Positions 34,661-50,465 of a DNA stretch of 64,000 nucleotides are shown here, one piece after another (positions within the stretch are counted from its first letter, which is position 1; each line of letters opens with the position of its first letter). Source of the stretch: Anaerolineae bacterium. Lineage in GTDB: Bacteria; Chloroflexota; Anaerolineae; Promineifilales; Promineifilaceae. Below the pieces are notes generated by a model. The model was not told where the DNA came from and did no database searches. It worked only from the letters and a program-made list of their open reading frames with translations. A program made the position numbers and the translations under genes. The stretch is from the NCBI GenBank assembly GCA_019637635.1, contig JAHBVI010000005.1:1-64000 (forward strand), in the 5' to 3' direction.

Positions 34661-34941
34661 ATGCCTCCTCTGAATCGCTGGTATATCAAATCTGCTCTCG
34701 TTTACCTGGCAACCGCACTCTCGCTGGCAGTGGTATTGGCCTTGCCCCCCAGCGCCAGCCTGCCCCTCTTCATCCGCTACCTGAACCCCGCTTATTTCCA
34801 CCTCTTCCTGGTGGGTTGGGTGACGCAAATGATCTTTGGCGTCATCTACTGGCCGTTTCCGCGCTGCTGCAATGGCTGGCAGCCGTTAAATTTGTGATCC
34901 TGGCCTGGCCGCGCGTCAAAGAGAAGTATCGGTGGGAATGA
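34661..34941 (+). pseudogene. COX1-like membrane protein gene broken by an internal frameshifting deletion
   Basis: The 5' part encodes MPPLNRWYIKSALVYLATAL....FHLFLVGWVTQMIFGVIYWPFPR, then runs out of frame and stops at 34897. A second frame continues with LLAVSALLQWLAAVKFVILAW and PRVKEKYRWE to a TGA at 34939-34941. Compared with the paralogue just downstream (136 residues), about 38 residues are missing between the halves, with a net shift. AGGAG precedes the ATG at 34661, so the gene was once normal. A sequencing error alone would not explain the missing segment. Confidence 0.7.
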
Positions 34942-34942
34942 G

Positions 34943-35353
34943 ATGCCACGTTTGAGCCAATGGGCCGTGCGCGCCGCCTTCATCTACCTGCTGTTGGGGT
35001 TTACCGTTGGCGTGCTGCTGCTGGCGCACAAGGGGCTGCCGCTGCATCCCGCCTTGTGGCGCTGGCTGCTGGCGCACATTGAATTCCTGTTGTTTGGCTG
35101 GGTGGTGCAGTTGACCATGGGCATGGCCTTTTGGATTTTGCCCCGCTACTGGCAGCGGTCACGCCGCTCTAAACCAGGATATGCCTTTATCGCTTTTATT
35201 CTGCTTAACCTGGGCATCTGGCTGGTGGTGGCCGGAACGACGTTCCGCGCCGGGGCTTGGGTTGTGCTGGCCGGCCGGTTGGTTGAAGTAGGCGCCGTGC
35301 TCCTTTTTGCCCTACACACCTGGAAACGCATTATTTCCCGAGAGGGCGCCTGA
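34943..35353 (+). CDS. Small four-helix membrane protein, heme-copper oxidase subunit I/NnrS-like
   Basis: The 136-residue protein has four helices. The second contains LAHIEFLLFGWVVQLTMGMAFWILPRY, similar to single bundles of cytochrome oxidase subunit I-like and NnrS-like proteins, where the His may bind heme. It is the intact paralogue of the broken gene directly upstream. It sits at the start of the molybdenum enzyme island, which suggests a role in electron transfer or assembly. GGGAATGAG lies before the ATG. Confidence 0.6.
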   Translation: MPRLSQWAVRAAFIYLLLGFTVGVLLLAHKGLPLHPALWRWLLAHIEFLLFGWVVQLTMGMAFWILPRYWQRSRRSKPGYAFIAFILLNLGIWLVVAGTTFRAGAWVVLAGRLVEVGAVLLFALHTWKRIISREGA

Positions 35354-35883: not shown

Positions 35884-38800
35884 ATGAACCTATCCCGACG
35901 AGACTTCCTGAAACTGAGCGGCGCGACCGTGGGCGGCGCCGCGCTGGCCCGTTACCTGCATTTGCAGCTGTTAGAACCGGTGAACGTGACCAACCCGTTG
36001 GCCGCCTATCCTGACCGGGGCTGGGAACAGATTTACCGCAACCAATACGCCTATGACTCCACCTTCACCTACGTCTGTTCGCCCAACGACACCCACGCTT
36101 GCCGCCTGCGCGCCTTTGTGCGTAACGGGGTCATTTTGCGTTCGGAGACGAATTACGACGTAGGTCATTACAGCGACCTGGACGGCCGTACCGCTACCGC
36201 CCACTGGAATCCCCGCGGCTGCAAAAAGGGGCAAACCTTCCATCGCCGCGTCTACGGCCCCCACCGGCTCAAAGGCCCCATCATGCGCCAGGGCTGGAAA
36301 AATTGGGCCGACGATGGCTACCCCTACCTGGACGCCGCCAACCGGGACAAATACAAGTTCACCGCGCGCGGCAGCGACGTCATGATCCCCATCTCTTGGG
36401 AGGAAGCCTACCGCTACATTGCCCGGGGCATGATCGCCATTGCCACCCATTACTCTGGGGCCGAAGGGGTGGCCCGCCTGCGCGCCGACGGCTACCCAGA
36501 AGAGATGATTGCCGCCATGCAGGGGGCCGGCACGCGCACGTTCAAGTGTCGCGGCGGTATGGGGCTGCTGGGCGTGATTGGCAAATATGGCATGTACCGC
36601 TTTGCCAATACGCTGGCGCTGCTGGACGCCAATGTGCGCGGCACAGACGAGGAAACGGCGCTGGGTGGCCGCCGCTGGTCTAACTACACCTGGCACGGCG
36701 ACCAGGCCCCCGGCCATCCTTTCACCACCGGTTTGCAAACGTCAGATTGTGACTTTAACGACCTGCGCAACACCCGGCTGCACATTCAATGCGGCAAAAA
36801 TCTGGTGGAAAACAAGATGGCCGAGTCCCACTTTTTCATCGAGACGATGGAGCGCGGGGCCAAAATTTACACCATCACCCCGGAGTATTCACCGCCGGCC
36901 ACTAAAGCGGATACCTGGATTCCAATACGGCCGTCTACCGACACCGCCCTCTTCCTGGGCATCACCAAATGGATCATGGACAACAACCGGTATGACGAAA
37001 CCTTCGTCAAGCAGTTCACCGACTTCCCCCTGGTGGTGCGCTTGGACACGCTCAAACGGCTGCATCCCCACGAAATCTTCCCGGACTACGAACCCGGTCT
37101 CACGGCCGATGGCCCCAGCTTCCAACTGCACGGCCTCAGCCAGGAGCAATATGACCAGTTGGGTGATTACGTCGTCTTTGACGAAAGCAAAGGGGAACTG
37201 GTCCCCCTCACCCGCGACGACGTGGGCGAACGCATGGCCGCCAAACGGATTAACCCCCGCCTTTCCTGGTCCGGCAAAGTGACGCTGCTGCCCACCGAAG
37301 AGGGCAGTGAGGGCGAAGAGATAGAGGTGATGACCCTCTGGGCCATGTACCAGGAGCATTTACAAGAGTATGATCTGAACACGGTGGCCGACATCACCCA
37401 CGCCCCCAAACATCTCATCCAGGAAATGGCCGAGGATATAGTGACCATGGGGCCGGTGGCCATCCACATTGGTGAGGGGATCAACCACTGGTTCCATGCC
37501 ACCCTGGCCAACCGTGCCCAATTCCTGCCGCTGATGCTGACGGGCAACATCGGCAAGCCGGGCGCTGGTTGTTACACCTGGGCCGGGAATTACAAGGCCG
37601 CCCTCTTTCAGGGTTCGCCCTGGGCCGGGCCGGGCTTCAAGGGGTGGGTGGCCGAAGACCCGTTCCACCCCAGTCTGGATGATGCGCTGGATGGTAAGGA
37701 CGTCCATGCCCACAGCTATGCTATGGATGAGGAACCGGCCTACTGGAATCATGGCGACCGGCCGTTGATTGTGGATACGCCGAAGTACGGCCGTAAAAAC
37801 TTCACCGGCGCCACCCACATGCCCACCCCCACCAAGGTCATCTTCCACACCAACGTCAACCTGCTCAACAACGCCAAACACCATTACGACATGATCAAAA
37901 ACGTCAACCCCCTCATTGACCTGATCATCGCCGTAGACATCGAAATGAATTCCAGCGTGGAGTACGCCGATTTTGGTCTGGCGGCCAACTCCTGGGCCGA
38001 ATTCACCGTGCCCGAAATCACCGCCTCTTGCTCCAACCCCTTCCTGCAAATCTGGAAAGGGGGCATCCCGCCCATTTACGACACACGGGACGACGCGGTC
38101 ATTCTGGCGGAAGTGGCGGCGGCTATTGGGGACGAGATTGGCGATGCAAGATTTAGAGATTACTGGAAGTTTGTCCTGGAAGGGCGACCGGAAGTGTATA
38201 TCCAACGGCTGCTAGACATGTCCGTGCCCACACGCGGCTACAAATACGAAGAGATCATGGCCGGCAAATATGGCGAACCGGGCGCGGCGCTGATGCTCTT
38301 CCGCACCTACCCGCGCATCCCCTTCTGGGAACAGGTGCATGATTCGGAGCCGTTTTTCACAGACTGCGGCCGTTTAGCCGCCTACTGTGACATTCCCGAA
38401 GCCATCGAATACGGCGAGAACATCATCACCCACCGCGAAGGGCCGGAAGCAACCCCCTACCTGCCCAACGTGATCGTCACCGGCAGCCGTTTTGTGCGCC
38501 CGGAGGATTACGGCATCCCCGAAGACGAAATGGGCTGGGACGAGCGCACTATCCGCAACATTGCCAGACCGTGGGCGCAGGTGAAGCAGACCACCAACCC
38601 CCTCTGGGAGCAGGGTTTCCACTTCTACTGCCTCACGCCCAAAACTCGCCACCGTGTCCACTCCTCCTGGAGTACGGTGGATTGGACCATTATCCTGGAC
38701 AGCAATTTTGGCGACCCGTACCGCGTGGACAAACGGCTGCCCGGTGTGGGCGACCACCAACTGCACATGCACCCCCAGGCGGCCAAAGACCTGGGCATTG

Positions 38801-39354
38801 AGGATGGGGATTATGTGTATGTGGATGCCAACCCGGCCGATCGGCCGTATCGTGGCTGGCAGGCGGACGACCCCTTCTACAAGGTCTCCCGCCTGATGCT
38901 GCGCGTTAAGTACAACCCGGCCTACCCCTACCACATCATCATGCTCAAACACGGGCCATTTATGGCCACGGAAAAATCGGTGCTGGCCCATGAGACGCGC
39001 CCCGACGGCCTGGCGAAATCGGAAGGCACCGGCTACCAGGCCAACCTGCGCTACGGTTCGCAGCAGTCGCTCACCCGTGACTGGTCTATGCCCATGCACC
39101 AGACCGATACCCTGTTCCACAAGCAGAAGGCATACACCGGCTTCATGTTTGGCGGCGAGGCAGATAACCATGCCCTGAACACGGTGCCCAAAGAGACGCT
39201 GGTAAAGGTAGAAAAGGCCGAACCGGGTGGACTGAATGGCGTGGGCGTGTGGGAACCGGTCAATTCCGGGTTTACGCCCGGCCATGAAAATGCGTTTATG
39301 GAGAAATATATGGCCGGGAATGTGGTCACCGTTTCTGGCGTGGACGAAGGCTAA
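35884..39354 (+). CDS. nxrA: Type II DMSO-reductase-family molybdopterin subunit, NxrA/NarG-like
   Basis: The 1156-residue protein has a Tat signal (SRRDFLKLSGATVGGAAL). An FS0 motif follows: C65-x3-D69-x3-C73 and C113 (FTYVCSPNDTHAC, NPRGCKKG), so one ligand position is Asp. The molybdenum ligand is Asp273 in YTWHGDQAPGHPF, the type II hallmark shared with NarG. The wording HGDQAPGHPF..GLQTSDCDFNDLR and GKNLVENKMAESH is like the periplasmic NxrA of Nitrospira, Nitrospina and anammox bacteria, as I recall it. It should interconvert nitrite and nitrate outside the membrane, but other substrates (chlorate, selenate) remain possible. AAGGAG is 6 bases before the ATG. Two small genes and a Fe-S subunit follow. 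Confidence 0.85.
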   Translation: MNLSRRDFLKLSGATVGGAALARYLHLQLLEPVNVTNPLAAYPDRGWEQIYRNQYAYDSTFTYVCSPNDTHACRLRAFVRNGVILRSETNYDVGHYSDLDGRTATAHWNPRGCKKGQTFHRRVYGPHRLKGPIMRQGWKNWADDGYPYLDAANRDKYKFTARGSDVMIPISWEEAYRYIARGMIAIATHYSGAEGVARLRADGYPEEMIAAMQGAGTRTFKCRGGMGLLGVIGKYGMYRFANTLALLDANVRGTDEETALGGRRWSNYTWHGDQAPGHPFTTGLQTSDCDFNDLRNTRLHIQCGKNLVENKMAESHFFIETMERGAKIYTITPEYSPPATKADTWIPIRPSTDTALFLGITKWIMDNNRYDETFVKQFTDFPLVVRLDTLKRLHPHEIFPDYEPGLTADGPSFQLHGLSQEQYDQLGDYVVFDESKGELVPLTRDDVGERMAAKRINPRLSWSGKVTLLPTEEGSEGEEIEVMTLWAMYQEHLQEYDLNTVADITHAPKHLIQEMAEDIVTMGPVAIHIGEGINHWFHATLANRAQFLPLMLTGNIGKPGAGCYTWAGNYKAALFQGSPWAGPGFKGWVAEDPFHPSLDDALDGKDVHAHSYAMDEEPAYWNHGDRPLIVDTPKYGRKNFTGATHMPTPTKVIFHTNVNLLNNAKHHYDMIKNVNPLIDLIIAVDIEMNSSVEYADFGLAANSWAEFTVPEITASCSNPFLQIWKGGIPPIYDTRDDAVILAEVAAAIGDEIGDARFRDYWKFVLEGRPEVYIQRLLDMSVPTRGYKYEEIMAGKYGEPGAALMLFRTYPRIPFWEQVHDSEPFFTDCGRLAAYCDIPEAIEYGENIITHREGPEATPYLPNVIVTGSRFVRPEDYGIPEDEMGWDERTIRNIARPWAQVKQTTNPLWEQGFHFYCLTPKTRHRVHSSWSTVDWTIILDSNFGDPYRVDKRLPGVGDHQLHMHPQAAKDLGIEDGDYVYVDANPADRPYRGWQADDPFYKVSRLMLRVKYNPAYPYHIIMLKHGPFMATEKSVLAHETRPDGLAKSEGTGYQANLRYGSQQSLTRDWSMPMHQTDTLFHKQKAYTGFMFGGEADNHALNTVPKETLVKVEKAEPGGLNGVGVWEPVNSGFTPGHENAFMEKYMAGNVVTVSGVDEG

Positions 39355-39358
39355 GACA

Positions 39359-39550
39359 ATGACAGCCCAAAAGACGCCGCAAACCTGTTTTAACTGTAGC
39401 CGGACGGATGAGGTGATTCCTCTGGTGGTGTGGTCTTATCGGGAACGGCCGTTGCCCGTGTGTTCCGCCTGTATGCCCCTGCTCATTCACAAGTGGGAAC
39501 AGGTGACCGCTCAATTGGACGCCCGGTTCATGGGAGAAAATGATGAATAG
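39359..39550 (+). CDS. 63-residue zinc-ribbon-like protein
   Basis: The protein has two CxxC pairs, CFNC (residues 10-13) and CSAC (35-38), with a beta segment between them (VIPLVVWSYRERPLPV). It begins 4 bases after the nxrA-like stop with GAAGG upstream. It overlaps the next gene. Location inside the operon suggests help in cofactor insertion or maturation, but this is only inferred. Confidence 0.7.
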   Translation: MTAQKTPQTCFNCSRTDEVIPLVVWSYRERPLPVCSACMPLLIHKWEQVTAQLDARFMGENDE

Positions 39551-39857
39551 CATTCCCTTACCCATGCTTGACCAACCCATAGACCTGGGTGTGCCCCTGC
39601 CCGCGCATGAAGAAGACCCCTACGAACTGGTGGGCATGGTCATCCCTGGCGAAGAAGGGCAAACCGAAGCGATGGCACGGGCATTGGTTGAAGAGTTCAT
39701 CCTGCTCGGCTGGAAGGAAAAGCAACTGATGACCCTCTTTACCAGCCCACTCTACCTGGGCACCCACCGCATCTATCAGGAAAAAGGGGCCGCCTGGGTC
39801 CAGGCGTTGATTCAGGATGTTTACACACAGTGGGGTTTACATAGCAGTCCTAAATAA
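39540..39857 (+). CDS. Small protein of unknown function in the nxr-like operon
   Basis: The 105-residue protein (MMNSIPLPMLDQPIDLG...DPYELVGMVIPGEEGQTEAMARALVEEFILLGWKEKQLMTLF) overlaps the zinc-ribbon gene by 11 bases and has GGGAGA just upstream. It has no Cys and no membrane helix. The mid region is helical and acidic. A small soluble factor specific to this enzyme is plausible; I do not recognise the family. Confidence 0.65.
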   Translation: MMNSIPLPMLDQPIDLGVPLPAHEEDPYELVGMVIPGEEGQTEAMARALVEEFILLGWKEKQLMTLFTSPLYLGTHRIYQEKGAAWVQALIQDVYTQWGLHSSPK

Positions 39858-39935
39858 GTAGTGATTGGAGGAGAGGCTTCAGCCGATGTTCGCCTAAAGG
39901 CTCTCCTCCGACTCTCCACATTTCAGATAGGGTCG
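39850..39935. repeat. Dispersed ~90-bp repeat, copy 2
   Basis: Key words in order: AATAAGTAGTGATTGGAGG, AGAGGCTTCAGCCGATG, TTCGCCTAAAGGCTCTCC, CGACTCTCCACATTTCAG, ATAGGGTCGCT. It sits between the last small gene and the end of the broken hicA gene. Confidence 0.9.
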
Positions 39936-40149
39936 CTATAGGAGATCGAGCAATTCTTCAGGCGTCATATGGGCCTGACGAAGAATGGAATGCAAAACAT
40001 CGGGCGGCAAATCGCCGGGATGGACGGGTACAGTGACAGAGAGATTTCCCCTCCGCAATCGCAGATGGCTCCCTTTTTGGCGTACTCTCACAAAACCAGC
40101 CCAGAGCAGCAATCACCTGGCGAGGCTTCAAAGTAGGAAGGCTAGGCAT
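39936..40149 (-). pseudogene. hicA: hicA toxin gene with a frameshift
   Basis: The first 17 codons read MPSLPTLKPRQVIAALG. The rest of a HicA protein continues in another frame as AGFVRVRQKGSHLRLRR, then NLSVTVPVHPGDLPPDVLHS and ILRQAHMTPEELLDLL to TAG at 39936-39938. The catalytic GSH is present in the shifted part. Between VIAAL and AGF only one base is found where two codons are usual, so about five bases are missing. In its own frame the product would be 63 residues without the active His. The partner antitoxin gene upstream is intact. Confidence 0.82.
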
Positions 40150-40414
40150 AAGTATGAACGGCTACATCAACCTTAAAGCGAAACACCTCAACGATCCTAT
40201 TCGGGGTAAGTTGGCGGGGATCGTCATCATGGGGCACAGGGCGGAGGTAAGGAAGCCCATCTTCAATGGAACCTTCCATGTGCAACGTAGCCGCTTCCAG
40301 CAGCATCGCTTTCGCCTCTTGCGGAGTAGTACCCATTGAGGCTACATCCAGCTCTGGGCATAGTGAACTGTATCCATGATCTTCTTTCAAGATTAAACCG
40401 GTAAAGGTAAACAT
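40142..40414 (-). CDS. hicB: HicB antitoxin
   Basis: The 90-residue protein has the HicB fold: FTGLILKEDHGYSSLCPELDVASMGTTPQEAKAMLLEAATLHM, close to the family pattern y.a.cPel....s.G.T.eEA. It lacks a long DNA-binding tail, as do many short HicB proteins. It overlaps hicA by 8 bases, with hicB first. AAAGGTGG precedes the ATG. It lies on the strand opposite to the respiratory operon and separates nxrA-like from nxrB-like genes. Confidence 0.85.
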   Translation of the reverse strand: MFTFTGLILKEDHGYSSLCPELDVASMGTTPQEAKAMLLEAATLHMEGSIEDGLPYLRPVPHDDDPRQLTPNRIVEVFRFKVDVAVHTYA

Positions 40415-40503
40415 GAAACCACCTTTATTAACTCTTTCACCATCACCAATAATCGTGTGGATAGTAAGTATAACACACCCACACTCGTTGCACGGAGGTT
40501 CTT

Positions 40504-41772
40504 ATGGCAGAAGTGTATAACTGGCAACTCGGCCGGCCGATGGAATATGTATATGAAGAAGCGCACCCGAACAGGCAGTTTGCGGCGATTTTTAACATCA
40601 ATCGCTGTATTGGCTGCCAGACCTGCACAGGGGCATGCAAAGCCACCTGGACTTTTTCCAAAGGGCAGGAGTACATGTGGTGGAACAATGTGGAGAGCAA
40701 ACCTTACGGCAGTTATCCCAAGTATTGGGACGTGAAAATTTTGCAGCAGTTGGATGAGGCGCATCAGGCGGTGGGCCAAACGGCCGTATGGGACCCCACC
40801 CAAACAGGCGAGCAATCCCCCTACGGTGTCTACAATGGCATGACCATTACCGAAGCGGCCGGCCAGACGCAAAACGGCAACCAGGCGCTCGGCTATCTGC
40901 CCACCGACCATGAATGGCAGGCGCCCAACTTCTACGAAGACACCGCCACCAAATATCAGGGGGATAGGCTGGGCATCTCCACGGAAGGGGCCGCCCTGCC
41001 CGTTCACCAGACCTGGTTCTTTTATTTGCAACGCATTTGTAACCATTGCACCTATCCGGCCTGCGCCGCCGCCTGCCCGCGCAAAGCGATCTACAAACGG
41101 GAAGAAGATGGTATTGTGCTGATTGACCAGAGCCGCTGCCGCGGCTACCGCAAATGCGTGGAGCAGTGCCCTTACAAAAAATCCATGTATCGGGGCACCA
41201 CCCACACCAGCGAAAAATGCGTCGGCTGTTACCCCCGCGTGGAAGGCAATGACCCGCTGAGTGATGGCGTACCCATGGAGACGCGCTGCATGGCTGTCTG
41301 CCCCGGCAAAATCCGGTTGAATGGGCTGGTGGATATTGCTGAAGACGGCACGTGGGCCGAAGACCCACAAAATCCGCTCTACTACCTGATCCGGGTGGAG
41401 CAGATCGCCCTGCCGCTCTATCCGCAGTTTGGCACGGAGCCGAATATCTATTACATCCCGCCACGGTGGGCGACACGGCCGTATCTGCGACAGATGTTTG
41501 GCCCCGGCGTTGACCAGGCCATTGAACGGTATAGCAATCCCTCACGCACCGTGCTGGCGCTGATGCAGCTATTCCGCGCCTCGCAAAAGATGGTTTTCCG
41601 CTTTGAAATTGAAGAAGGTCCTCTGGTACGCGAGGTGGAAAAGAACGGACAACCCTGGCAAATGTATGATGATACCGTGATCGGCTTTGACGCCCAGGGG
41701 CGCGAAATCGCCCGCCTGAGCGTGGTGGAGCCGATGATTGAGCGAGGGGCAGAGCGGTTGAATTCGATTTAG
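40504..41772 (+). CDS. nxrB: Iron-sulfur subunit, NxrB/NarH-like
   Basis: The 422-residue protein has four cluster motifs: C35-x2-C38-x2-C41-x3-C45, C179-x2-C182-x4-C187-x3-C191, C212-x5-C218-x3-C222 with Tyr215 (CRGYRKC) where a fourth Cys would be, and C239-x2-C242...C262-x3-C266. This 3x[4Fe-4S] plus [3Fe-4S] pattern is standard in NarH and NxrB. It carries no signal peptide, so it would be exported with the Tat-bearing alpha subunit. GGAGG is 6 bases before the ATG. ACGGCCGT occurs at two places in the gene. Confidence 0.92.
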   Translation: MAEVYNWQLGRPMEYVYEEAHPNRQFAAIFNINRCIGCQTCTGACKATWTFSKGQEYMWWNNVESKPYGSYPKYWDVKILQQLDEAHQAVGQTAVWDPTQTGEQSPYGVYNGMTITEAAGQTQNGNQALGYLPTDHEWQAPNFYEDTATKYQGDRLGISTEGAALPVHQTWFFYLQRICNHCTYPACAAACPRKAIYKREEDGIVLIDQSRCRGYRKCVEQCPYKKSMYRGTTHTSEKCVGCYPRVEGNDPLSDGVPMETRCMAVCPGKIRLNGLVDIAEDGTWAEDPQNPLYYLIRVEQIALPLYPQFGTEPNIYYIPPRWATRPYLRQMFGPGVDQAIERYSNPSRTVLALMQLFRASQKMVFRFEIEEGPLVREVEKNGQPWQMYDDTVIGFDAQGREIARLSVVEPMIERGAERLNSI

Positions 41773-41829
41773 TGGTAGGTGGCAGGTGGCAAGTGGCAGG
41801 TAAAACTGGTCACAACAATGGAGAGTAAA

Positions 41830-42576
41830 ATGAACAAAGAAAACGCAATTCGCCGGGCGCAGGTGTATGGCTTTCTGACCGAGGCCTTTTTGTACCCACG
41901 TGAAAACTGGACGGAAGACATCGCCTTGTTAACTGAAATTGTGCAGACACTAACTGACAACAACGAATTACCGATCACCGATTACCGATTCCCGATCACC
42001 GATTACCGCCTCCCCGACCTGCAAGCCGCCCATCGCCACACCTTTGGCATTGCCGGTTCGCTCTGTTACGAAACGGAATATGGCCTGCCGCACGAATATC
42101 GCCAGAGCCAGGAAATGGCTGACATTGCCGGTTTCTACCGCGCCTTTGGTTTTAACCTGGGCGGCGCGAAGCGGGAACGGCCGGATCACATCGCTGTGGA
42201 ACTGGAATTTATGCACATCCTGGCGCTGAAAGAAGCGTATGCCCTGGAGACCGGCATTCCTGAACATCTGGAGATTTGCCAGGCAGCGCAGGCCAGATTC
42301 CTGCAAGACCATGTAGGGCGCTGGATTGGCCTGTTTGCCCAAAGCGTGGCCCACAATGCCCCTGATTCACCCTATGCGACGCTGGCTAACTTTGCCGCGG
42401 CCTTCGCCCGGGCAGACGTGGCGCGGCTGGGTGTGCGATTGGATGCGCCGCAATTAAGCGACGTGCAACATACACCTTTTGACCCGGACTTTTCCTGCGC
42501 GGAGTGCGCCGTTGCCGGGTTGGGGGAGCAGGGGTTTGTGCGGGCGGAGATGATTGGCGTGATGCGTGACGAGTGA
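41830..42576 (+). CDS. TorD/NarJ-family maturation chaperone
   Basis: The protein of about 248 residues is all-helical. It starts MNKENAIRRAQVYGFLTEAFLYP and carries CYETEYGLPH and EMADIAGFYRAFGFN, the TorD/DmsD pattern for binding Tat signals and inserting the Mo cofactor. Residues about 42-57 ([16 protein letters not shown]) come from ACCGATTACCGATT repeats. The ATG at 41830 follows GGAGAG. The C-terminus and stop fall in another repeat array. The C-terminal part has CAEC. Confidence 0.85.
   Translation: MNKENAIRRAQVYGFLTEAFLYPRENWTEDIALLTEIVQTLTDNNELPITDYRFPITDYRLPDLQAAHRHTFGIAGSLCYETEYGLPHEYRQSQEMADIAGFYRAFGFNLGGAKRERPDHIAVELEFMHILALKEAYALETGIPEHLEICQAAQARFLQDHVGRWIGLFAQSVAHNAPDSPYATLANFAAAFARADVARLGVRLDAPQLSDVQHTPFDPDFSCAECAVAGLGEQGFVRAEMIGVMRDE
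41966..42012. repeat. In-frame ATTACCG array inside the torD-like gene
   Basis: Seven-base units of the type ACCGATT and ACCGATC follow in a direct row of about six. The same unit forms the inverted array at 23645-23702. It adds the sequence PITDYRFPITDYR to the chaperone. Confidence 0.9.
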
Positions 42577-42625
42577 CGTGTGACGAGTAATCTCACGCAT
42601 CACTCGCCACGCATCACGGCCGTAA
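42560..42625. repeat. Inverted array at the torD-like 3' end
   Basis: GTGATGCGTGACGAGTGACG faces CTCACGCATCACTCGCCACG and ends at ATCACGGCCGT. The array encodes VMRDE and the TGA stop of the chaperone gene. Confidence 0.9.
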
Positions 42626-42637
42626 AGGAAGTGAACC

Positions 42638-43702
42638 ATGATGACACGATCTCGACTTTTACTCCTCACCCTGCTGGCAGTGGCCGGGGTGTTGACCTTT
42701 TTTAAGATTCCGTTGGCCAGCAGCCAGGGGGTGACGATTGCGGCGGCAAAGGTGGAAGGGGCGCTGCCGGTGGCTGATGTGACGGCCGTAGAATGGCAGA
42801 GCGCCACGGCCGTTTCCGTTCCCCTCAGCGCCCAAATTGTGGCCAAACCGATGTTCCCGCAGGCCAATGTGAAGGCGGTGGATGTGCGCGCCCTGTACAA
42901 TGATGGGCAGATCGCTTTCCTGGTGGAATGGGCCGATGGCACGATGGATGACACGGCCGTGCGCGTGCAGGATTTTGCCGATGCGGTAGCCATTCAATTT
43001 CCTCTGGTGGAGGGCCAGCCCTTTTTCTGCATGGGGCAGCAGGGCGGTAACGTCAACATCTGGCATTGGAAAGCGGACTGGCAGGCGGGCATGGACGGCC
43101 GTCAGGACGTGGACGACGTCTACCCCAATATGTACGTGGACGATTACCCCTTCGCTGACATGGAAGCCGGCGCAGCCGCGCCTGTCTCCTCCTACACCGA
43201 CATCAACTATCTGCCGGCCATGGCCGCCGACAACCTGTTTGCCGCCCCCACCTATACCTCGCCGGTAGAAGATTTGATCGCCGGCAGCTTTGGCTCGCTC
43301 ACTTCCAAACCGGCGGAGATGCAAAACGTGCAGGGGCATGGGGCCTACGCCGATGGCAAATGGCGGGTCATTTTTACCCGCGACCTGGTTTCACCAGAAG
43401 CGGAGGATGCCCAATTCAGGGCGGGGCAGGTTTATTCGCTGGCTTTTGCTGCCTGGGATGGCGCTAACGAGGAGCGCAATGGGCAAAAATCTACGTCGCA
43501 ATGGGTCTCCCTGCAATTAGGTAGCGTTACCAGCAGCCCAGGCACAACCGGGGCCGCCCCTGCCGCTGGCAGCAGAGGTTCGTCAGCTAACGCCCTGGAA
43601 GGGGTGCCTTACCTGCTCGTGCCCATGTTCCTGGTGTTTGGCCTGGTGGTGCTGGCCGGGGTTGGCTTCTGGCTGCTTTCCAAGCTGCCGGAGAAGAAGT
43701 GA
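42638..43702 (+). CDS. Heme-b gamma subunit, NxrC/EbdC/DdhC-like
   Basis: The 354-residue protein has a signal peptide (RSRLLLLTLLAVAGVLTFFKI), the ethylbenzene-dehydrogenase-type heme domain, and a C-terminal membrane anchor (LLVPMFLVFGLVVLAGVGFWLL). The axial Met is likely in FFCMGQQGGNVNIWHWKADWQ, where EbdC has M....G....W.W. The other ligand is usually Lys and cannot be pinned down by eye. It would pass electrons between the alpha/beta subunits and the quinone pool or a cytochrome c. Confidence 0.82.
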   Translation: MMTRSRLLLLTLLAVAGVLTFFKIPLASSQGVTIAAAKVEGALPVADVTAVEWQSATAVSVPLSAQIVAKPMFPQANVKAVDVRALYNDGQIAFLVEWADGTMDDTAVRVQDFADAVAIQFPLVEGQPFFCMGQQGGNVNIWHWKADWQAGMDGRQDVDDVYPNMYVDDYPFADMEAGAAAPVSSYTDINYLPAMAADNLFAAPTYTSPVEDLIAGSFGSLTSKPAEMQNVQGHGAYADGKWRVIFTRDLVSPEAEDAQFRAGQVYSLAFAAWDGANEERNGQKSTSQWVSLQLGSVTSSPGTTGAAPAAGSRGSSANALEGVPYLLVPMFLVFGLVVLAGVGFWLLSKLPEKK

Positions 43703-43704
43703 AC

Positions 43705-44667
43705 ATGGAAAAGCAACAACTCTTGTTTAAGTGGCTGGCGCTGACGGCCGTTGCCGAGTGGCTGATATTGCGCACGGCGACACGGGCGGCCATTCACGTG
43801 CCCAAATCGCCGGCTTTTATCACCGTTTACCAGGGTCTTAACAGCCTGGGGCAGGTGGCGGCGACGTTTGTGGCCCTGCTGGCGATGGTGTTGCTGGTGG
43901 GGATTGCCTGGCACGGCCGTCAGCAAATCTGGCTCTCCCTCACATTGGTCGGGCTGGCCTTGTTGAGCGTCTTATTTTTGTTTATTGTGCCGCCGACGTG
44001 GTTGGCGTTGTTGTACCAGGTATTGGCAGTTACGGCCGTACTGTTGATTGGCGTTTGTCTGTTTTGGGGGCAGGGCACGGCAGGAGGGAAGAGGGTCTGG
44101 CAGGGGGCAGCGGCCTGGCTGTTCCCTGCCCTTGCCCTGCTTTGCGGGTTGCTGGTGCAGCTGTTGCCCAATGTGTACGCGCTGGCAGGTCGGCCCGGCC
44201 CACCGCCCCTGACCGGCGTGTTGTTTAATCTGGGTGAATTGTTAATTGTGATCACTGTTTTCCTCTGGTGGTGGAGTTACGGCCGTACGCATTCCTGGCA
44301 GTATTGGTTGTTAGCCGCCATCCCTGCCCTGCTTTTTGCCCTCAGCTTCTGGCGCGACCCGGCCATGACCGGCATCCTCACCATCTGGTCTACCGGGCTG
44401 ACGCTTTTCCTGCCCTGGCCGGTGTATGCCCTGGCCCTCTGGCTGGTTGGCGTGACGGTGCTGGCAACCTGGCGCGCCGCCCCCCTCACGGCCTACGCCA
44501 TCCTGCTCCTCATGGCCGCCGGCTACACGCCCCAGTTGAGTTCTCAGCTATTTTGTGCGATGATCGGGCTGTGGTTGCTGGCACGGCCCGAAGCGGCTTC
44601 GAGTTCGCCGTTGCCCTCCCCGCTGCCACCTTCGTCCACCACCGGCAACCCGTTGATCAGCCACTAG
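43705..44667 (+). CDS. Polytopic membrane protein of the nxr-like operon
   Basis: The 320-residue protein has eight to ten hydrophobic helices and few charges. It overlaps or abuts the gamma subunit gene (an in-frame GTG at 43699 overlaps its stop by 4 bases). It lacks visible heme or Cys ligands except occasional His and Tyr residues. A C-terminal Pro/Ser-rich tail follows the last helix. It could be a membrane anchor or quinone-binding partner for the complex. I do not recognise the family. Confidence 0.6.
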   Translation: MEKQQLLFKWLALTAVAEWLILRTATRAAIHVPKSPAFITVYQGLNSLGQVAATFVALLAMVLLVGIAWHGRQQIWLSLTLVGLALLSVLFLFIVPPTWLALLYQVLAVTAVLLIGVCLFWGQGTAGGKRVWQGAAAWLFPALALLCGLLVQLLPNVYALAGRPGPPPLTGVLFNLGELLIVITVFLWWWSYGRTHSWQYWLLAAIPALLFALSFWRDPAMTGILTIWSTGLTLFLPWPVYALALWLVGVTVLATWRAAPLTAYAILLLMAAGYTPQLSSQLFCAMIGLWLLARPEAASSSPLPSPLPPSSTTGNPLISH

Positions 44668-46012: not shown

Positions 46013-47854
46013 ATGAAACGAAAGTTGACGATAGTTTCTATTCTGTTGAGTGGGTTAGGGCTGGTCTGGCTCATTTTTCTGGCGCTGGTGGGCCGAACGC
46101 AAGCAGGAACAGGCAGCACGGCCTTTCTGCCGCTTATCTTTTCCCCTTTGAATTATGACATCTTGTTAAACGGGGACGCCTTTACGCCTCATGTGTTGGC
46201 CGTGCAAACGGGCACGGCCGTCACCTGGAAAAATGGCGAATCCACCCCGCAAACCATAGTGGCCGGTTTGGGCGCGTTTACCTCACCGGAACTGCCACCG
46301 AACGGTTTATTTGACTGGTCGGCCACGGCCGCTGGCATTTACACCTACACCACCGCTGCTGATGGCTCCATCGAGGGCGCGCTGGTTGTTTCCGAAAATG
46401 GGATGGCTGACTGGTTTAACGGCCGTACTCCCGCCCAGGCATATGCCGACTCCTGCGCTGGCTGCCACGGCGCTGACCGCAGCGGCGGCATCGGCCCCGC
46501 CCTGCTGCCCGGCGCACTGGCCGAAAATGACGCTTTTTACGTGGAGGTGATCAAGAACGGCCGTCCCGGTACTATCATGCCTCCCTGGGGCAATTTAGGA
46601 TTGCGCGACGAAGAAATCTGGCTGCTGCTGGGGTTCCTGCGCAGCGAACCGGAAGATACCAGCGTGACCTGGGACATGGACGACATCCAGGCCAGCCATA
46701 CCGTCCTGATTGACGAAAGCACCCTGCCCATCACCCCCACCCACAGCGGCAACCTGGATAACCTGATGCTGGTCACCGAGCGGGAAGCGGAGCGCATTGC
46801 CGTTTTTGATGGCGACACGCATGCCCTCTTGGGGCGCATCCCTGCCAGCTACCGGGCACATGGGTATGCCTTTGACCCTACCAATGACCGTTGGGTCTAT
46901 AACATCGGCCGCGATGGCTGGCTGTTTAAGATGGATTTGTATACCTTGCAGCCGGTGATTAAAGTGCGCGTGGGGCTGGATTCACGCGGGCTGGCGATTT
47001 CTGATGATGGTCATTACCTGATTGCCGGGAATTTTGCCCCGTACACGGCCGTCATCCTGGACGCCCACACCCTGCAACCGCTGCAACTGATTGCCACCGA
47101 GGGGTATGACCCGGACGGCCGTTGGGTCAAATCCCGCGTGGCCATCACCAGCGACGTAGCCCCCAGCCTGGTTGGCCCCTACTTCATCATCGCCCTCAAA
47201 GAAGCCGGGCAGGTGTGGCGCATTGATTACAGCCAGCCCGGCTTCCCCATCACCAAATTAGAAAACGTGGGCCGTGTTTTGCACGATGGTTTCCTCAGCC
47301 CGGACAACGGCCGTTTCTACCTGGCCTCCCAGGAAGATGACCTCATGGCCGTTATTGACGTAGCCAACTGGACACTGGTCACCCAGATTGAAACCGGCGA
47401 CACCCCCCATCCTGGCTCCGGCGCTGTCTGGGAAGCCAACGGGCAGGAGTACGGGGCCACCGTTCACGCGGGCGAAGGGTTGGTGACCATCTGGAACTTG
47501 GCCGACAACCAGATTGCCGCCCAAATTCCCACCAGCGGCCCCGGCCTCTTCATCCGCGCCCACGAACAAAACCCATACGTCTGGGCGGATACGATGTTTG
47601 CCGCTTCCCCCAACCAGATCTATGTGATTGATAAGGAAACGCTCACCGTGACCCATGTCATCACCGATGGGCTGATGACGCTGCACCCGGAATTGACCGC
47701 TGACGGCCAGTTTGTCTACATTAGCGACTGGCAGGGGGAGGTAGTGCGGGTATACAACGCCCACACCTTTGCCCTGGTGGCTGAGTTGAGCGGCCTGACC
47801 ACACCCACCGGCATCTTCAACACCTCCCGCCGCTATGAAATGTTGGGGCATTAA
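46013..47854 (+). CDS. Cytochrome cd1-type protein (NirS/NirN-like) with N-terminal cupredoxin-like domain
   Basis: The 613-residue protein has a signal/anchor (about 5-28). A cupredoxin-like domain follows at 45-127 (GDAFTPHVLAVQTGTAVTWKN...GIYTYTTAADGSIEGALVVS) without Cu ligands. A cytochrome c domain has C148-AG-C151-H152 and Met189 in GTIMPPWG. A heme d1 propeller runs from about 225 to the end, with His283 (SYRAHGYAF), His424 (RVLHDGF) and His466 (GDTPHPGSG), which correspond to the proximal and two distal His of NirS, and KEAGQVWRIDY. Nitrite reduction to NO is likely; a NirN-type maturation role is the alternative. GGAGG precedes the ATG at 46013. Confidence 0.83.
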   Translation: MKRKLTIVSILLSGLGLVWLIFLALVGRTQAGTGSTAFLPLIFSPLNYDILLNGDAFTPHVLAVQTGTAVTWKNGESTPQTIVAGLGAFTSPELPPNGLFDWSATAAGIYTYTTAADGSIEGALVVSENGMADWFNGRTPAQAYADSCAGCHGADRSGGIGPALLPGALAENDAFYVEVIKNGRPGTIMPPWGNLGLRDEEIWLLLGFLRSEPEDTSVTWDMDDIQASHTVLIDESTLPITPTHSGNLDNLMLVTEREAERIAVFDGDTHALLGRIPASYRAHGYAFDPTNDRWVYNIGRDGWLFKMDLYTLQPVIKVRVGLDSRGLAISDDGHYLIAGNFAPYTAVILDAHTLQPLQLIATEGYDPDGRWVKSRVAITSDVAPSLVGPYFIIALKEAGQVWRIDYSQPGFPITKLENVGRVLHDGFLSPDNGRFYLASQEDDLMAVIDVANWTLVTQIETGDTPHPGSGAVWEANGQEYGATVHAGEGLVTIWNLADNQIAAQIPTSGPGLFIRAHEQNPYVWADTMFAASPNQIYVIDKETLTVTHVITDGLMTLHPELTADGQFVYISDWQGEVVRVYNAHTFALVAELSGLTTPTGIFNTSRRYEMLGH

Positions 47855-47898: not shown

Positions 47899-49803
47899 AT
47901 GAAAAATCGCTCGTTGCGGACGCAGTTAGGCATTATTTTTTGGGGGTTTCTGCTGCTGGTTATCAGCTCCGTCGGGGTGACGTTCTGGCTGGTGCAGACG
48001 CAGCAAAACGACGCCGCCATCATCAATCTGGCCGGGCGGCAGCGCATGTTGGCGCAGCAAATGACACGGCTGGCGCTGACGGACCCGGCCAACCCGGAAT
48101 TGGGTGAAACCATTACCCGCTTTGACCAGACACTGCGGGTGCTGCTGGATGGGGGGGCAGTGGTGAATGGCTACGGCGAACCCGAAGCGGCTTCGGGCCG
48201 TACCCTCCTTTTGTCTCCTACCACCGATCCAACGATCCGGCGACATCTCCAGGACGTGGCAGACTTCTGGCCTCTCTTTCGAACTGATTTGACGCCGCCC
48301 GTCAATAGCCGCCTGCTGGAATCAGAAACGGCCGTGCTGCTCACCCGGCTCGACGCTGTCGTCAGCGCCTATGAGGCCCAGGCGCAGGCAAAAATTGGCT
48401 GGCTGCGCGGGGTACAGATCACCTTCCTGGTTGCTGCTTCCTTGCTGCTGGCGTGGGGCTACCGCATCGTCCGCCGCCAGTTGCTGCAACCCTTAGCGGC
48501 CCTGGGGCAGGCGGTGCAGGAAATTGGCGCCGGTAAACGAGAGGCCCCGCTGCCAGCCTTGTCGGCCAATGAACTGGGGCAACTGGCAGAGGCCATGGAA
48601 ACGATGCGCGGTGAGATCACCGTTTATCAAACTGCGCTGGAACAGCAGGTGAACCAGCGCACACAGGAATTAACCACCGCCTTTGAATTCAGCCAGGAAA
48701 TCGTGCGCCAGTTGGATACCGATGCCCTATTACACTCCGTGGCTCAGCGGTCGCGTGACCTGATGCAAGGAAAAGCGGCTTCAGTATGTGTATTAGATGG
48801 CGATGGGCACACGCTGGAACTGATCGCTGGCAGCGGCGCAGGCAATGAGTATCTTGGCCTGCGCCAATCCACCCGGCGGGGCATCGCCCTGCCCGTTATC
48901 CAACAACATCAAACGGTGATCACCGAAGGGGGCTGCGCAAAATGCGCTTTTCTGCATCATTTTCCAGGTACGTCATGTATGGCTGCCCCTTTACAGGCTG
49001 GGGAGCGGACGTTGGGCGCGCTGTGTGTGGTACGGCCGCAGCCCCCTTTTGACGCCGCCGAGAGCCGCGCCCTGACGCTGCTGGCCAATGCAGCGGCTGT
49101 TGCGCTGGAAAATGCCCGGCTGATTGCCGCCGGTAAAAAGCAGGCTGAGGAAAATGCCTCGTTTTCTGAGCGGCAACGGTTGGCGGCCGAATTGCATGAT
49201 AACCTGGCGCAAACCCTGGGGGCCATCAATTTGCGGGTGGGGTTAACGGCTGAATTGATCCACAGAGGGCAAAGCGACACGGCCGTGACCCGCCTGAAAG
49301 AGATGCAAACGAGCCTGCAAAGCGCCTATGCCCAGGTGCGCATGGCCCTGACCGGGCTGCGTGACCCCTTACCAGAAACGGGGGACTTGCTGCCAGAGGT
49401 ACAATCGTTATTAGCTGACTTTGAAGCCCGATCGGGCTTGCCGGTTGAACTGGTTGTTACCGGGAAAGAAGGGATTGCGTTAACGGCCGTTAGCCAAAAA
49501 CAGGCCCTGCACATCCTCCGCGAAGCCCTCACCAACATCCACCGCCACGCCCAGGCTTCCCAGGTGCAGATCACCATTGCCAGAGAAAACGGCTCCGTCA
49601 TTTTCCAGGTTAAAGATGATGGCAAAGGGTTTGATCCCGGCCAGGTGCACAGCGCCAATCATTTGGGGCTGACCATCATGCACACCCGCGCCGAACGCAG
49701 CCGGGGACAATTAACCGTTTATTCTATGCCGGGACAGGGGACGCAGGTTACGGCCGTGTTCCCAGCCAAACCAGGCGCAAATCATCAGGTGGAGGTCAGA
49801 TAA
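47899..49803 (+). CDS. narX: NarX-like nitrate/nitrite sensor kinase
   Basis: The 634-residue protein has TM helices at about 10-32 and 171-188. The periplasmic domain between them starts with a P-box-like helix, AAIINLAGRQRMLAQQMTRLAL (39-60), the nitrate-binding element of NarX/NarQ. A HAMP domain follows, then a GAF-like domain with a Cys group (C346, C349, C360), a HisKA_3 dimerisation helix with His433 (AELHDNLAQTL) and an HATPase with DDGKGFDPGQ. The next gene overlaps by one base and encodes a NarL-type regulator. Start at 47899 has only a weak GGG upstream. Confidence 0.87.
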   Translation: MKNRSLRTQLGIIFWGFLLLVISSVGVTFWLVQTQQNDAAIINLAGRQRMLAQQMTRLALTDPANPELGETITRFDQTLRVLLDGGAVVNGYGEPEAASGRTLLLSPTTDPTIRRHLQDVADFWPLFRTDLTPPVNSRLLESETAVLLTRLDAVVSAYEAQAQAKIGWLRGVQITFLVAASLLLAWGYRIVRRQLLQPLAALGQAVQEIGAGKREAPLPALSANELGQLAEAMETMRGEITVYQTALEQQVNQRTQELTTAFEFSQEIVRQLDTDALLHSVAQRSRDLMQGKAASVCVLDGDGHTLELIAGSGAGNEYLGLRQSTRRGIALPVIQQHQTVITEGGCAKCAFLHHFPGTSCMAAPLQAGERTLGALCVVRPQPPFDAAESRALTLLANAAAVALENARLIAAGKKQAEENASFSERQRLAAELHDNLAQTLGAINLRVGLTAELIHRGQSDTAVTRLKEMQTSLQSAYAQVRMALTGLRDPLPETGDLLPEVQSLLADFEARSGLPVELVVTGKEGIALTAVSQKQALHILREALTNIHRHAQASQVQITIARENGSVIFQVKDDGKGFDPGQVHSANHLGLTIMHTRAERSRGQLTVYSMPGQGTQVTAVFPAKPGANHQVEVR

Positions 49804-50465
49804 TGCCCACTTCCCCCGCCCGTATTTTGTTGGTTGACGACCACGAACTGTTCCGCGAAGGGTTGGCCGGGCTGGTCAATGTCCAGCCGGATCTGGCCGT
49901 CGTGGGGCAGGCGGGTGATGGCCTGGAAGCATTGACAATGGTGCGTGATTTGCAACCAGATTTGATTGTCATGGACATCAACATGCCCATTTGTGATGGC
50001 CTGGAAGCGACCCGACTCATCCGGGAGGCGCTGCCAGAGGTTCGCATCGTCATGCTGACCGTGCATGATAAAGACGAGAAACTATTTGCGGCCATCAAGG
50101 CCGGGGCCAACGGCTATATGCTCAAAGACACCAGTGCGGCCGATTTTCTGCGCGGGGTTCGTGGTGCGTTGGGCGGCGAAGCCACGCTGCCGCCTAAACT
50201 GGCAGCCAGCCTGGTGGAAGCGTATGCCCGGCTGGCCGCCCAACCGACCCACCCCCTGCCTACCGAAGATGATCCTGACCTGACCGGCCGTGAATTGGAA
50301 GTATTGAACCTGATCGCTACTGGTGCATCCAATCAGGAAATTGCCGCACAACTTTCTATCAGTTTGCATACTACCAAGAGCCATGTGCGGAATATCCTGG
50401 CTAAACTTCATGCTGTCAACCGCCGCCAGGCGGCCCGGCTGGCCGCCCGGCGTGGTTTGCTATAG
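49803..50465 (+). CDS. narL: NarL-family response regulator
   Basis: The 220-residue protein has a receiver domain (ILLVDDHELFREGLAGL, phospho-Asp in DLIVMDINMPICDG, Lys in GANGYMLKDT) and a LuxR-type helix-turn-helix (DLTGRELEVLNLIATGASNQEIAAQLSISLHTTKSHVRNI). TAATG overlap with the kinase gene shows translational coupling. It probably controls the nxr-like and cytochrome cd1 genes upstream in response to nitrate or nitrite; no NarL-box was identified by eye. Confidence 0.92.
   Translation: MPTSPARILLVDDHELFREGLAGLVNVQPDLAVVGQAGDGLEALTMVRDLQPDLIVMDINMPICDGLEATRLIREALPEVRIVMLTVHDKDEKLFAAIKAGANGYMLKDTSAADFLRGVRGALGGEATLPPKLAASLVEAYARLAAQPTHPLPTEDDPDLTGRELEVLNLIATGASNQEIAAQLSISLHTTKSHVRNILAKLHAVNRRQAARLAARRGLL

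Follow-up and report, generated by a model that had tools for sequence, protein, structure and literature searches.

The window, the whole 64,000-nucleotide stretch of DNA analysed here, encodes a cytochrome cd1-like protein whose start codon is backed by the alignment with its relative at locus L011, which begins at L011's own ATG. The ORF and its parts are as follows, residues being counted from the first Met:

46013..47854, + strand: cd1-like protein, whole ORF, 613 aa (ATG at 46013, stop at 47852-47854)
46013..46105, + strand: putative signal peptide or membrane anchor, residues 1-31 (hydrophobic stretch; model helix 2-29)
46145..46393, + strand: copper-free cupredoxin domain, residues 45-127 (PDB match, relatives' profile, AlphaFold model)
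46421..46639, + strand: cytochrome c domain, residues 137-209, with CAGCH at 148-152 and Met189 (PF13442)
46751..47830, + strand: D1 beta-propeller, residues 247-606 (PF02239, model)

In a Pfam search of the window protein, residues 137-209 matched PF13442 (E 3e-11) and residues 247-606 matched Cytochrom_D1, PF02239 (E 6.7e-76), and both ligands of the c-type haem, H152 and M189, are retained. The nearest solved proteins by sequence in the PDB are NirN (6rtd, 251 bits), followed by NirS (164 bits), and fold comparison of the full-length AlphaFold model (pLDDT 80, with low confidence in the linker and the c-domain loops) likewise placed NirN structures first and NirS next. An earlier sequence-only reading had claimed an unusual order of cupredoxin-like domain, cytochrome c and D1 propeller, and this order is upheld, with the domains at residues 45-127, 137-209 and 247-606 of a protein that, from its N-terminal sequence and modelled helix, is probably exported. 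A search for this order, as that reading had proposed, showed it in independent MAGs as well, which rules out an assembly chimera as the source of the fusion.

An NXR-type operon around the cd1-like gene

The cd1-like ORF stands in a group of genes for an NXR-type complex and a two-component pair:

35884..39354, + strand: NxrA-like molybdopterin subunit with Tat signal (1697.7 bits to 7b04 subunit A; TAT_signal)
40504..41772, + strand: NxrB-like iron-sulfur subunit (585.9 bits to 7b04 subunit B)
41779..42576, + strand: NarJ/TorD-type chaperone (PF02613, TIGR03482)
42638..43702, + strand: NxrC-like haem b subunit (PF09459; 113 bits to 7b04 subunit C)
43699-44667: membrane protein, 322 aa, without Pfam or NCBIfam match (conserved in the NXR-cd1 operon)
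47899..49803, + strand: sensor kinase, PilJ-HAMP-GAF-HisKA_3-HATPase (Pfam)
49803..50465, + strand: response regulator, receiver and LuxR-type DNA-binding domain (Pfam)

FmdE-like and thioesterase-like proteins are encoded between the membrane protein and the cd1-like protein. We take PDB 7b04 to be the nitrite oxidoreductase of Kuenenia, and the kinase and the regulator to be NarX-like and NarL-like, respectively. NxrABC is here an operon partner, separate from the cd1 protein. The order nxrA-orf-nxrB-chaperone-nxrC-membrane protein-FmdE-cd1-NarX-NarL is conserved in L011, L012 and L013; in L073 the part from the beta subunit through FmdE is conserved, with L073's own cd1 gene at the same locus, and in L016 NarX/NarL alone adjoin cd1. 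Elsewhere, in L018, the gene of an HAO-like multihaem cytochrome is found ~2.6 kb downstream of cd1, and L094 has a different multihaem cytochrome gene near cd1. In L020, which is from Planctomycetota and is the closest relative outside Chloroflexota, nirJ, nirF and a gene for a fused siroheme decarboxylase (AhbA/AhbB) come after cd1. Since the window's cd1 gene is found beside NXR genes and a NarX/NarL-like pair, reduction of nitrite to NO is its likely activity.

Two further observations concern these neighbourhoods. The operon at 35884-43702 places a 7b04-type NxrABC with its chaperone in a Chloroflexota genome, where it may work as nitrite oxidation or as nitrate reduction. Small COX1-like ORFs are found near cd1 in three genomes (window ~34661-35350, L018 2261-3083 and L021 12145-12564), arranged in tandem in L018 and apparently also in the window.

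The first domain and its copper columns

No Pfam cupredoxin match was obtained for the window protein itself. When its N-terminal 100 aa alone were searched against PDB sequences, blue copper protein 5fc9 was found (E 0.00067), and a profile built from seven relatives matched the C-terminal cupredoxin of NirK, amicyanin and plastocyanin, with a best E of 1.7e-15. The AlphaFold model of residues 32-131 (pLDDT 85) superposed on 5fc9 at Z 12.6, with 1.4 A over 81 residues, and matched plastocyanin 1bxu at Z 12.0. Taken together, the PDB match, the relatives' profile and the model match show that the fold of the first domain is that of a cupredoxin, so that structure prediction bears out the fold first read from the sequence, and the model matches to 5fc9 and 1bxu rule out a different fold for residues 45-127.

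The ligand set of a blue (type 1) copper cupredoxin is His-Cys-His-Met. Its columns were defined by relative L017, in which the set is intact, and transferred by alignment; in the window protein they are occupied as follows (alignment to copper-intact relatives):

46250..46252, + strand: Q80, column of the first copper His
46352..46354, + strand: T114, column of the copper Cys
46361..46363, + strand: D117, column of the second copper His
46370..46372, + strand: I120, column of the copper Met

The absence of the copper set, also claimed earlier, is thereby confirmed. Among 13 cupredoxin-bearing proteins, two have the full set (HCHM in L017 and L077), two have part of it (HSHT in L073, HSSI in L016) and nine have none of the ligands, the columns reading QTDI in the window, L011 and L012. 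The window protein belongs to a nine-member clade (100/97 and 97/74 in two trees) without a single full copper set, and the copper-intact L017 and L077 branch off elsewhere. The simplest reading of this distribution is that copper was lost after the fusion, although the small branches are poorly resolved in their order. As L018, L074 and L094, three of the 16 Chloroflexota proteins in the alignment, lack the whole domain, it is dispensable for the enzyme.

Selection was estimated as dN/dS by the Nei-Gojobori count for the three pairs with unsaturated silent sites:

window/L011: copper-free domain 0.158, c-domain 0.246, D1 0.059
window/L012: copper-free domain 0.160, c-domain 0.088, D1 0.072
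L011/L012: copper-free domain 0.143, c-domain 0.067, D1 0.078

The copper-free domain is thus under purifying selection, with a constraint weaker than that on the propeller. Against the two copper-intact relatives its dN/dS was 0.75 and 0.51, with silent sites near saturation, suggesting that change at the time of copper loss was fast or relaxed. One explanation would be that the enzyme is as we propose below but that its cupredoxin domain plays no part in docking and drifts as a passive relic or linker. The loss of all copper ligands in 9 of the 13 domains, the lack of the domain in 3 of the 16 relatives, and a dN/dS that in the closest pairs is roughly double the value for D1 would agree with such drift; however, values of 0.14-0.16 are far below 1, and the residues that determine the fold are retained, so we consider a drifting relic rather unlikely. 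Purifying selection on the copper-free domain lends indirect support to the idea of docking put forward in the sequence-only reading, and the domain may serve in that role.

Pocket residues, phylogeny and known relatives

Three His of the D1 propeller correspond to pocket residues of NirS by alignment:

46859..46861, + strand: H283, equivalent of NirS His182 (haem d1 ligand)
47282..47284, + strand: H424, equivalent of NirS His327
47408..47410, + strand: H466, equivalent of NirS His369

The three haem d1 pocket His that had been claimed are therefore present; PMC8756737 describes His182 of NirS as the haem d1 ligand and His327 and His369 as binding nitrite. All three are found in 16 of 16 aligned Chloroflexota proteins, the window's included, and in L020. 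The window protein shares with NirS of P. aeruginosa and Paracoccus the c-haem domain, the D1 propeller and the equivalents of His182/327/369, but its D1 part is shorter (about 1080 vs about 1172 bases), it carries the extra cupredoxin, and no haem d1 genes adjoin it. NirN (6rtd) has a c-d1 core of similar length, but the two NirN references have Asp in the column of H424; NirF differs from the window protein both in the c-haem domain, which the latter has, and in that same column, which is Tyr in three NirF references.

In the class to which the window belongs, 36 of 396 genomes encode a D1 protein at E <= 1e-20. Scores to PF02239 fall at 400-464 bits in 26 of these genomes and at 239-272 bits in the other 10, the window's included, and the two types occur together in none of the 36, up to four candidates having been scored per genome. 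Within the window's own family, D1 proteins are encoded in 9 of 52 genomes, every one of the low-scoring type. In D1 trees, L020 groups with the window protein and its Chloroflexota relatives in a single clade (100/99 with 33 rows, 99/96 with 43 rows), and this clade lies outside NirS+NirN (91/82 and 89/83, respectively); the NirS clade itself is supported at 100/100, on a branch of 1.55, in the 43-row tree. A piece of a Natrinema D1 gene joins the window's clade (96/86) on a long branch. These trees took in seven of the 26 class NirS loci and the one in-frame piece of the broken Natrinema gene; L021, whose frame is in three pieces, was excluded from alignments and trees, L019 was used just as far as its frame break, and L014, at the end of a contig, starts partway through the cupredoxin domain. 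Because long branches meet at the join of NirS and NirN, we place more trust in the separation of the three lineages than in their precise branching order. The term cytochrome cd1-type in the sequence-only reading thus holds for the c-haem, the D1 domain and the pocket His, but both trees place the protein outside the NirS+NirN clade, and by its sequence it is best described not as NirS proper but as a lineage sister to NirS/NirN.

Among 392 genomes of the phylum of L020, this type was found in L020's own genome alone (825 bits). The next 17 genomes scored 238-314 bits, and nine of these 17 Planctomycetota proteins, when included in the tree, all grouped with NirS. No such protein was found in the viral contigs searched.

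Fusions of a related kind are already known. Schwartz et al. 2022 (PMC8756737) describe C1-C2-NirS in Chloroflexi, with a cupredoxin ahead of C1-C2-NirS in several ORFs, and state that no evidence was seen for C2-NirS without C1 in Chloroflexi. These fusions share with the window protein the phylum, an N-terminal electron-carrier domain on a c-d1 core, and the lack of a surrounding nir operon. The window protein differs from them in having no C1 (its single CxxCH is at residues 148-152), in the loss of the copper set, and in a D1 domain from another clade (239-272 bits, against 400-464 bits in 26 genomes of the class). The full-NirS locus L040 is also without an upstream CxxCH, and so is L030, the frame of which looks broken. 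A literature search, with little coverage of subscription journals, returned neither a copper-free cupredoxin on a cd1 protein nor a cd1 gene in a Chloroflexi NXR operon. The fusion of a cupredoxin with NirS in Chloroflexi is thus prior knowledge; the present analysis adds the form without C1 and its clade, together with the loss of copper and the NXR surroundings.

Outside these phyla, PMC10999283 uses as outgroup a cytochrome d protein of Halobacteriota that has no c-domain. We would assign the Natrinema relative, a D1-only protein in which no signal, cupredoxin or haem c was seen, to the same family; its gene lies on a plasmid (L066 6001-7193), is unannotated and frame-broken, and is related to the window's clade. 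The description of NirS Clade 5 in PMC10999283 (thermophiles, wastewater, Planctomycetota) fits the Thermus-side branch of the tree better than it fits the window's clade. The Thermus nirS gene (L067 7902-10721) lies directly 5' of a TIGR04053 radical SAM gene, and no siroheme decarboxylase was found on that L067 plasmid.

Haem d1 supply and probable function

The synthesis of haem d1, as outlined in PMC13168839, proceeds through siroheme, NirDLGH, NirJ, NirF with NirC, and NirN. In the window's genome, which is 100% complete and 8% contaminated, siroheme decarboxylase PF17805 had no match, and no second D1 protein passed the cut-off, hence neither NirF nor NirN is encoded. NirJ gave 140 bits at its best place and 195.7 for the whole protein against a cut-off of 515, and the best protein by the NirJ profile is AhbD-like (457 bits, cut-off 500) and adjoins hem genes. 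As positive controls, the genomes of P. mandelii and P. aminovorans each gave four places matching PF17805 and that of L020 gave two, and five NirF, NirN and NirS references scored 218-514 bits to PF02239. Genes of haem d1 synthesis, whose absence the sequence-only reading had named as evidence against itself, are thus largely missing (decarboxylase, NirF and NirN absent, NirJ below cut-off), while SUMT is present.

This absence extends to most cd1 genomes of the class. PF17805 was at cut-off in 1 of 16 distinct Chloroflexota genomes of the low-scoring type, duplicate genomes being merged and G758 (which holds L094) left out. That genome is G748, which holds L019, and there PF17805 clusters with SUMT/HemD, a precorrin-2 dehydrogenase-like gene and hem genes; G103 had a match below cut-off. 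None of the 26 full-NirS genomes had PF17805 at cut-off, one match in G199 lying below it, and SUMT was found in 12 of 38 cd1 genomes. Three one-contig genomes (G027, G213 and G228) have a full NirS and neither SUMT nor siroheme decarboxylase at the thresholds used. As the lack of PF17805 is general in the class, the window protein is not singled out, and since the full-NirS Chloroflexota are likewise without the decarboxylase, the missing genes are no disproof of haem d1; they weaken the case for haem d1 in the pocket but do not refute it.

The AhbD-like radical SAM gene is not claimed as a haem d1 enzyme, its class-wide link to cd1 being weak: it was found in 18 of 36 cd1 genomes and in 115 of 360 without cd1 (Fisher p 0.04, up to five candidates per genome). 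At L079 2989-15861 (G000:C245, about 67-80 kb), such a gene stands at one end of a cluster of hemL, hemH, hemE, hemB, hemD, hemC, hemA and protoporphyrinogen oxidase, though the ordinary haem b route looks complete.

With a genome lacking siroheme decarboxylase, NirF and NirN, a complete-looking haem b gene set and the AhbD-like gene 20-30 kb downstream, and the HAO-like gene beside cd1 in L018, one could suppose that the propeller holds a non-d1 haem (e.g. haem b) and that NO or hydroxylamine is the substrate, or that the protein is a sensor. We regard this as improbable, as both nitrite-binding His are invariant, as in NirS, relative L020 lies within a haem d1 operon, and the Chloroflexota relative L019 has the decarboxylase in its genome. 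That the protein is a NirN-like enzyme of haem d1 maturation, as its top PDB match by sequence and fold (6rtd) might suggest, is highly improbable, given His for the Asp of NirN in the H424 column, a position outside NirS+NirN in the trees (91/82, 89/83), and its being the sole D1 protein over cut-off in the genome, which leaves no NirS to mature.

The computations establish the cupredoxin fold, the loss of ligands, the retained pocket residues, a clade apart from NirS, the operon setting and purifying selection. We think it somewhat probable that this is an exported nitrite reductase which forms NO, has a d1-type haem and uses its copper-free N-terminal domain in a non-redox role. Nitrite as the substrate, haem d1 in the pocket and docking as the role of that domain are inferences. 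The c-type haem would receive the electrons and hand them on to the d1-type haem of the propeller, where H283 would bind the haem iron and H424 and H466 nitrite. The enzyme would act beside an extracytoplasmic NXR-type complex that interchanges nitrate and nitrite, under the control of a NarX/NarL-like nitrate/nitrite sensor. Cupredoxins can also act as electron donors to NirS, and for that reason the fused domain is read as a former donor. Cytochrome c551 is the donor to NirS named in PMC8756737. On the reading as a nitrite reductase, the N-terminal domain would derive from a fused blue-copper electron donor, copper would have been lost in the clade, and the domain would have been kept, its likeliest use being to hold the c-haem in position as a scaffold or to dock an external donor. 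More tentatively, the protein could represent a fourth cd1 branch beside NirS, NirN and NirF, a nitrite reducer of NXR operons that gains d1 by a route free of decarboxylase and NirF or from neighbours, and in which a blue-copper donor has turned into a partner-binding domain.

One protein family thus offers a graded series, from an intact blue-copper domain through partial sites to a domain that is copper-free but selected. It shows a fused electron-carrier domain changing into a domain of another kind, and what becomes of an electron donor after fusion can be tested in it directly. The wider gap concerns Chloroflexota that have NirS-type sites without siroheme-dependent genes at the thresholds used. 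It implies that their haem d1 is made or obtained otherwise, or that their pockets hold something else, and the NirS genes of such genomes are commonly scored as denitrification genes.
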